The notes below the pieces were generated by a model. The model did no database searches, had not been told where the DNA came from, and was given only the letters and a program-made list of their open reading frames with translations. A DNA stretch of 64,000 nucleotides from Candidatus Paraluminiphilus aquimaris (lineage in GTDB: Bacteria > Pseudomonadota > Gammaproteobacteria > Pseudomonadales > Halieaceae), in assembly GCF_026230195.1 (NCBI RefSeq), contig NZ_CP036501.1, positions 1,116,001 to 1,180,000 on the forward strand, written 5' to 3'. Below, one piece after another: positions 24,229 through 27,283 of this stretch. Position numbers and translations under genes: made by a program. Numbering within the stretch: position 1 is the stretch's first letter; each line of letters begins with the position of its first letter.

Positions 24229-25389
24229 TTACTTCGAAGAGGCACTGGCTGCTTTTATTTCAACCTGAACGTCCATGGCATCTAAGGTCGCTCTCACGTC
24301 GTACGTAATCCACGCAGCCCAGAGGATTGCGGTCGCTGAAACCCAGGATGCAGGTAGCAAAACGAATGCTAACACCCATAGCGCAATAAAAAACGGCCAG
24401 CGCTTGAAAGCCTTCGCGAATCGTTTCGGTGTTGACTCTACGCCGGGAGAGTAGGCGAACGACCTTATGCCTAGGAACCAAGCGTTCGCCACAAGTGCCG
24501 CGATGAACACAAGTTTTGGCGGCGGTGCCGCATCGATCTCTGGGTTCTCGTCGAGTGGTGCGTGGACCCCATTGTTTCCAGTTTTCAGTGCCTGTTCAAT
24601 GGCGTTCCAAACGTGCACCGGCGTGGGCCTTGCAACGGTGCCGTTGAGATTTTTCTCGGACGGCACGGATCGCCAGCGATAGAGAATCTCACACGATTGA
24701 TTGATCACCAGCACGCCGGGCTGGAAAAAACCCTTAGGATGTTCGACCTTCCAGTTGGCACCGCGCTGCAGAAACTCGGTTTTTCCTCGGCTGGCGTAGA
24801 GAGTCAGCCAGTCGCGATCATTACAAATGCGCGGTATCTCCTGGTGTGGGTCACCAATATTTTCAAAGTTAAGGTCCCAGTGAGTATGCGCTTTATGCGC
24901 AAGATACTGTGGCTCGCTAGTTACGGCGAAGACCTCACCGCCTGCCGCGCGAATCTTCTCGACAACACCGTCGTCAATATAGCTCCGTAACTCGGAGCGA
25001 CAGGGCGGTCACCAAAACCCTCGGTAAAACAGCAGGACCACGAATGAGTGCTGGGCAATGGTCGCGTCAAGCCACGGGAGGCGGGCGCCCGGAGGTGGGT
25101 CGAGCTCAGCCTGTGGCTTATTTTCTTCTGCTGGCTGGCTAACCACAAATTCAATCGACCAAGGGGTGCCCGTGCCGCTAACCCGAAACGAGTGTTGCTC
25201 GCAGCGATCGCCACCACAGAGAATTAGCTTTAAATCACCGGATTGATCGAGAGCGTTATCGGCGTCGATGATGCCCGTTGCGCTAAACGTATCACCCGCA
25301 GCAAGGTCAGAGTCATTGAAAAACGCCACCGCTGCATCAACACGTTCGCTGAGCGCGTAGGGGATTGTTTCGCTGACCTGATGGAGCAT
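24229..25389 (-). CDS. Predicted selenoprotein: redoxin (AhpC/TSA-like) with in-frame UGA at the catalytic position
   Basis: One 387-codon frame runs from ATG 25389 to the stop at 24229, broken only by TGA at 25009-25011 (codon 127). The residues around it read FYRGFW-[UGA]-PPCRSELRSY, the peroxiredoxin/thioredoxin active-site pattern in which UGA replaces the first Cys of CxxC. Downstream the frame continues with normal redoxin features (GGEVFAVTSEP, HPKGFFQPGVLVINQSCEILYRW) and then two hydrophobic segments (about 305-325 and 340-375). A hairpin of bacterial SECIS form starts 10 bases after the UGA. The N-terminal 95 residues (with CGGDRC) are unassigned. The likely role is thiol peroxide or disulfide reduction near the membrane. 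Alternative: a nonsense mutation or sequencing error. Confidence 0.78.
24982..24998 (-). promoter_or_regulatory. Candidate bacterial SECIS hairpin
   Basis: On the minus strand GCTCCG and CGGAGC form a perfect 6-bp stem around the 5-base loop AGTTA. It begins 10 bases after the UGA, and the loop starts 16 bases after it, with a G in the second loop position. These values fit the known bacterial SECIS pattern of a short stem-loop just downstream of the Sec codon inside the coding region. Confidence 0.65.
25009..25011 (-). other. In-frame UGA codon proposed to encode selenocysteine
   Basis: The TGA aligns with the peroxidatic or first redox Cys of the YRG-x-W-C-x-x-C pattern, and the second Cys (codon 130) is kept. 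A random nonsense mutation would be unlikely to fall exactly on this residue. Confidence 0.7.
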
Positions 25390-26892: not shown

Positions 26893-27283
26893 TGGTGGAG
26901 GCGGCGGGAGTTGAACCCGCGTCCGCCAGTACTCTGCCTTTGGCTCTACATGCTTAGTTTCCGTTAATTAATTTAACGGCCAACAGCCCAACGGTCAGGA
27001 CGTAGACCGCGATTCTCGTAAAATTTGACGGTGACTCCCGAGACCTAAGCCACCGCGGTCCAGTTCTGAATGACAGTCACACCCGCGATACTGGCATCTT
27101 AGGTTAGACCGCCAGGGCCGAAGCACCTGGATGGTGTTACAAAGGGCTACTTACGCAGCCAGTTGTGCACCGTAGTTGTCGTCATTGGCAACTATTAAGT
27201 TACAGCTTTGGATTAACGTGATTGGCTGTCATCACGGCATGCACCGCAGGTTTCGTTACCGTCGTCGAATCCGTAACGCCCCC
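26893..27283 (-). ncRNA. ssrA: tmRNA (one-piece ssrA, 391 nt)
   Basis: Transfer-messenger RNA that rescues stalled ribosomes with SmpB. The 5' end GGGGGCG at 27283 pairs with CGCCTCC just before the 3' ACCA (26893-26896), forming the acceptor stem; the T-arm sequence GGTTCAACTCC and the 5' segment TTACGGATTCGACG are conserved. The tag frame at 27151-27189 starts with GCC and encodes ANDDNYGAQLAA followed by TAA. The proteolysis signal ends LAA as in other proteobacteria. The pseudoknot region lies between the tag and the 3' domain. smpB is 5.8 kb away. Confidence 0.96.

Follow-up and report, generated by a model that had tools for sequence, protein, structure and literature searches.

A probable selenocysteine-containing redoxin with a C-terminal hydrophobic tail in Candidatus Paraluminiphilus aquimaris and its relatives

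Selenoproteins built on the AhpC-TSA (redoxin) domain, PF00578, are already known in several forms. Both the Prx-like row in Table 1 of PMC13188914, a table that covers 119 families or subfamilies by that review's count, and Prx-like 1 in the text of the GOS survey (PMC2398784) combine this domain with a UxxC motif (UxxC/UxxU for the Prx-like selenoproteins as a whole), in which selenocysteine (Sec) takes the first position and a bSECIS element follows the UGA. The same survey records selenoprotein fusions, including a Prx-like 3, and counts 2,740 Cys homologues for Prx-like 1. PMC12013277 states that Cys-containing homologues now seem to exist for every known selenoprotein, and that its own method likely misses families without Cys orthologues. 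For the Pseudomonadales, PMC1794560 (2006) gives FdhA as the only selenoprotein.

The gene considered here belongs to a marine member of that order, Candidatus Paraluminiphilus aquimaris, and was first predicted from a stretch of 64,000 nucleotides of its genome (contig NZ_CP036501.1, positions 1,116,001 to 1,180,000), which is called the window throughout; an ordinary tmRNA gene (26893-27283, minus strand) is also present in it. The gene occupies positions 24229..25389 of the window on the minus strand, running from the ATG at 25389 to the TAA at 24231-24229, i.e., 387 codons including the stop, for a whole protein of 386 residues. As originally predicted, its sole internal stop is the TGA of codon 127 (25009..25011, minus strand), located exactly at the place expected for the first Cys of a CxxC redoxin motif, in the context FYRGFW-U-PPC, with U denoting the candidate Sec127. 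The mechanical list of open reading frames presents the gene in two pieces, of 126 aa (25009-25389) and 161 aa (24229-24714), so that the expectation that automatic annotation would split it is borne out.

The joined protein matches PF00578 with 36.2 bits, over a cut-off of 26, across residues 113-185 (24835..25053, minus strand), while at E up to 1 no match is seen for the upstream half alone, and the downstream half alone reaches 12.4 bits. Since the cut-off is passed only when the halves are joined, the TGA splits one domain and its position is not due to chance. In the 7 homologues from the genus (65-88% identity) a start codon lies exactly 126 codons 5' of the TGA in every case, the frame 3' of the TGA is open in all 8 genus members compared, and the mean pN/pS of these 8 (28 pairs) is 0.29 upstream and 0.23 downstream. 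An open frame in all eight, together with low pN/pS on both sides, indicates that no decay has followed the TGA, as the prediction of continued coding had it, and that purifying selection, as judged from these alignments, acts downstream of it.

The selenocysteine machinery, whose presence the original prediction had proposed to check, is complete in this genome (2.72 Mb, a single contig). The genes selA (2328920-2330281), selB (starting at 2330293) and selC, for tRNA-Sec (2332331-2332420; 72.5 bits, gathering score 47), are adjacent on the same strand, and selD is found elsewhere (408 bits), so that all four genes required of a selenoprotein host are at hand. None of selA, selB and selD has an internal stop, and for this reason TGA is, as far as seen, not a general sense codon. 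Formate dehydrogenase was considered as the selenoprotein that might account for the sel genes, and was set aside because none of the three molybdopterin oxidoreductase places (L083-L085) has an internal stop.

Within the genus, 24 of 57 genomes have selA, and all 9 carriers of the gene are among these 24, an association of 1.5e-4 if the genomes were independent, which they are not; selA is also found in all 6 further carriers from the order, bringing the total to 15 of the 15 carriers tested. A tRNA-Sec match of at least 66 bits is present in 8 of the 9 genus carriers, and the ninth, G064 (79% complete, with selA cut short), has a match of only 42 bits, below the gathering score. The tRNA-Sec search returns some match in all 57 genus genomes, 31 of them above the gathering score, and scores near 47-49 bits are therefore no proof of a tRNA-Sec. 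As 15 selA-bearing genomes of the genus are without the gene, including one with a remnant and one partial genome of the same species, its distribution in the genus is patchy. At one locus (L051:12463-14226), an ORF that by reading of its sequence resembles a tyrosine integrase follows the tRNA-Sec; past two stops, it has its first Met some 100 bases beyond that gene, as if an island had entered at selC.

After the UGA there is a bSECIS-like hairpin, GCUCCG-AGUUA-CGGAGC (24982..24998, minus strand). Of the constraints stated in the text of PMC13188914, those compared here are an apical loop of 3-9 nt, an upper stem of 4-16 bp, a G in loop position 1 or 2, and a spacing of 16-37 nt; the hairpin lies within all of them, having a 5-nt AGUUR loop with G second, a 6-bp stem, and 16 nt from the UGA to the apical loop. 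In the first 16 genes aligned, all 96 stem cells pair, and two of the six pairs, the only ones that vary at all, change in a compensatory manner (U-A to C-G and C-G to U-A; 12 compensated cells). None of 500 shuffles reaches the observed paired percentage, the number of compensated cells, or the covariation score, with the other two of the five covariation measures being unremarkable (pairs with two-sided changes, equalled in 222 of 500 shuffles; further pair types, in 467 of 500). When the partner column is slid by 1-3 positions, pairing drops to 23-52%.

Over 42 genes, the stem pairs in 245 of 252 cells, and the seven mismatches (6 G-G, 1 G-A) concern one pair in seven genes, in which Ala is residue 132; 29 genes have the loop AGUUA and 13 have AGUUG. 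Synonymous-codon identity over the ten codons after the UGA is 0.70, against a median of 0.39 for 371 windows of alignment, and the eleven top windows all begin no more than 5 codons from the UGA. Codons 132, 135 and 136 change together, mostly keeping the stem, and for this reason the family offers a good test of how a bSECIS constrains the protein it lies in. Folding of one sequence is less distinctive: over 50 bases it does only somewhat better than shuffles (z -2.1; 4 of 200 equal it), and over 106 bases it is not special (z -0.5), with the hairpin lost in the minimum-energy structure and partly kept in the centroid.

The protein has matches in 14 of the 140 genomes searched from the family, and 9 of these carry it whole or nearly whole, each with the TGA; the others are a tail remnant in G070 and four weak matches confined to the redoxin. 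The profile finds matches in 13 of 390 genomes from the order; in 9 the whole protein is present, at 10 places of which 7 are new, and the remaining four give only short redoxin matches (35-45 bits) with no stop. Matches in the family of G475 come from 53 of 206 genomes and from 64 places, 60 of these new. Excluding the G070 remnant and the redoxin-only matches, and counting L009 and L016, which are the same contig, once, this makes 76 distinct homologous places. An automated stop count finds an in-frame TGA in 75 of them; the 76th (G1389:C566) is a contig fragment that begins past the UGA site, and one place (G1331:C233) has two TAG besides the TGA.

Forty-two distinct genes, from 41 genomes and four family groups, were read base by base, namely those with loci returned by the searches, a selection independent of the TGA. 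All 42 have TGA followed by P-P-C, and none has a Cys codon there. In the first 16 genes the site was located via the TGA itself, and the alignment column later showed TGA in all 16; for the other 30 loci (26 new), TGA, TGC or TGT was accepted, and TGA was found in 30 of 30. In the remaining 33 places, the TGA is positioned by the automated count. Neither a sequencing error nor a frameshift, which had been named as possible refutations, explains a TGA kept in 42 genes of 41 genomes, and decay of the homologues after the site, another such refutation, is contradicted by the purifying selection found there. In G070, which has retained selA, the locus L019 matches the tail only and contains additional stops; it is probably a decayed copy of the gene.

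The profile has Cys at the position of codon 127, and a Cys orthologue should accordingly score equally well. No full-length Cys orthologue was found among the family, order, or G475-family genomes searched. Wider searches at E up to 1e-15 gave none either: the class (369 genomes) yielded only the window genome and a redoxin (L067), and the phylum (398 genomes) only the window genome. Because these samples overlap, few candidates were scored per genome, and many genomes are partial, the case for the absence of a Cys form is fairly strong within the order and weak outside it. Plasmids gave one match, limited to the redoxin, and none of 25 candidate stretches in viral contigs encoded a relative. 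A tree of the 42 proteins, given a midpoint root solely for display, divides into groups of 7 and 35 rows, both of which include the window's family and f40; the paralogues of G385 fall one in each group, at a point where the program warns of long branches meeting. The ORFs in the flanks (about 1.5 kb at most loci, longer for the window and L009) vary from one homologue to the next. Three small clusters are all that recur, each at two or three loci, and since the neighbours are mostly unshared the context gives no function.

The protein has three parts. The N-terminal region, residues 1-95 (25105..25389, minus strand), has no Pfam or NCBIfam match, and the whole 126-aa upstream piece finds none at E up to 1; it includes the pair C58-x4-C63 (25201..25218, minus strand), a candidate second redox centre with both Cys present in 42 of 42 genes. 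The redoxin domain follows, for which 16 of 16 members of profile A2 match PF00578 at E up to 0.1 (best 1.8e-11), and in it the second Cys of the motif, Cys130 (25000..25002, minus strand), predicted to be retained and probably the resolving Cys, is invariant in all 42. The hydrophobic tail covers residues 291-368 (24286..24519, minus strand), as delimited by the hydropathy of the 42 aligned proteins, with a peak at 332-350 (family mean 2.07, Kyte-Doolittle, 19 residues) and a weaker one at 293-311 (1.21 for the family, 1.81 for the window protein); in windows that begin at any of the first 60 residues, the value is at most 0.6. Of the positions that were counted, C58, C63, U127, P128, P129, C130, W106, W126, D180, H182, P218, P224, W239, W304 and F305 are invariant in 42 of 42, and the three-part layout with its four redox residues is common to all of these genes. 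The original prediction of an architecture unlike standard peroxiredoxins holds for this layout and not for the catalytic domain, which is itself AhpC-TSA. AlphaFold2, run on two sequences, yields a poor model (mean pLDDT 50.7), and profile A2 matches none of 177,635 sequences of solved structures at E up to 0.1.

We consider it very probable that Sec is inserted at codon 127, and the original call of a probable selenoprotein is upheld by the sel genes, the constant TGA, and the compensatory changes of the hairpin. Judging from conserved sequence and structure, SelB and Sec-tRNA, guided by the hairpin 3' of the UGA, would perform the insertion. The product would be a thiol/selenol oxidoreductase of redoxin fold, anchored to the membrane through its C-terminal hydrophobic tail. 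By analogy with UxxC chemistry, Sec127 would most likely attack a peroxide or disulfide substrate, and Cys130 would resolve the intermediate as a selenenylsulfide; the conservation of Cys58 and Cys63 suggests that they act as electron donor or acceptor for UPPC. As the N-terminus has no hydrophobic stretch nearby, a cytoplasmic orientation is probable for the catalytic part. The chances that reaction, relay and topology are as proposed are, in our estimate, about even.

Were the UGA an ordinary stop, the locus would be a pseudogene or two separate genes. The mechanical list of a 126-aa and a 161-aa ORF looks just like this, and the patchy distribution in the genus, with G070 holding only a tail remnant that has a further stop, would agree with it; however, the TGA is the same in all 42 genes, which span four family groups, selection is purifying on both sides of it, it splits one catalytic motif, and the hairpin that follows has compensatory changes, all of which make an ordinary stop exceedingly improbable. 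Readthrough as such needs no Sec, and a near-cognate tRNA or a reassigned code could insert another amino acid. This is also highly improbable, given that selA, selB and selD of the host lack internal stops, with TGA not seen as a general sense codon, that all 15 carriers tested have selA, that residue 127 is the position of the catalytic Cys, and that the hairpin fits the bSECIS constraints checked.

The remaining alternative is compatible with Sec insertion and concerns novelty, namely that this is an unlisted member of the known Prx-like UxxC selenoproteins, with accessory regions and no separate identity. PF00578 with UxxC is just what characterizes the Prx-like row of PMC13188914 and Prx-like 1 of the GOS survey; fusions such as Prx-like 3 have precedent in that survey, and two further UGA-containing UxxC redoxins, L072 and L022, were met here. 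On the other hand, all 42 genes have the three-part layout and four invariant redox residues, and the window protein stays under every NCBIfam cut-off. We give this alternative a substantial chance, somewhat short of even. The boldest reading, that of a Sec-only family (a three-part membrane redoxin that combines a dithiol at the N-terminus, the selenol centre UPPC and a membrane tail, and that no lineage has converted to Cys), has in our view equal prospects of being right or wrong.

If it is right, the generalization of PMC12013277 cited above would not hold for the orthologues of this family, and this would suggest a reaction that a Cys form cannot sustain. Selenoprotein finders lean on Cys/Sec pairs and likely miss Sec-only families, and a plain ORF search or standard annotation cuts such genes in two. 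About 75 natural gene places are available, 42 of which were read, with the UGA and the four redox residues constant, and the family thereby offers a good system for studying why selenium is kept.

Several described proteins come close. The motif here, W-U-P-P-C, differs from the PxxxTxxU needed for the Sec form of classical peroxiredoxin according to the text of PMC13188914, and that assignment was rejected. In NCBIfam 20.0 (June 2026) the window protein passes no cut-off; its best score, 19.5 bits against a cut-off of 120, is to the SelL-related redox protein (NF040769), which is thereby excluded as an assignment, although a weak profile similarity extends over residues 112-241 and, of 16 members, 15 have a match to this model at E up to 0.1, the best at 5.6e-6. 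WUPPCR presumably resembles the WCPPCR motif of tryparedoxins.

L067 of G570, a stand-alone Cys redoxin of 213 aa with a CPWC motif, is 31% identical over residues 104-302 (199 residues). The first Cys of its WCPWC aligns opposite U127, in agreement with the predicted placement of the UGA at the first active-site Cys and with the homologue check, in which either Cys or Sec was expected at this codon; P-x-G-x-x-Q-P-G-V and W...PSE.N..G...RP are common to both. L067 has neither the N-terminal region nor the hydrophobic tail, and its host has no selA match. The isolated redoxin domain therefore does exist with Cys, while no Cys form occurs among the full-length proteins sampled.

Another genus of the family (G056) has L022, a UPPC redoxin with in-frame TGA joined to a DsbD_N domain (35.9 bits, cut-off 25). 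This domain, like the N-terminal region here, has a C-x4-C, and the domain order is opposite to that of the window protein. Homology of the N-terminal region with DsbD_N (PF11412) was considered and is not supported, there being no Pfam match and an hhalign probability of 0.1% to the L022 domain, which itself matches no solved structure at E up to 1. A second UGA redoxin of the window genome, L072 (G000:C1:2345050-2345448, outside the window), has FFRAHW-U-PYC and an AhpC-TSA match of 88.6 bits when read through, with N-terminal segments that look hydrophobic by eye.

Among the titles listed by a search of open-licence papers, none is on this family, and no row in Table 1 of PMC13188914 names the layout, although its broad Prx-like and Redoxin rows could include it; as the alignments of the 2008 survey (PMC2398784) are figures, an earlier sighting as metagenome reads is possible. 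By domain and motif, PF00578 with UxxC, the protein is assigned to a known kind and is one of the UxxC Prx-like selenoproteins of PMC2398784 and PMC13188914, as far as the text and tables of these sources define them, sharing with them the AhpC-TSA domain, Sec as the first residue of UxxC, and a bSECIS after the UGA. It differs from them in its N-terminal C-x4-C region and C-terminal hydrophobic tail, and from Prx-like 1, with its many Cys homologues, in having no Cys orthologue in the genomes searched; this three-part layout and the apparent lack of a Cys orthologue look new.
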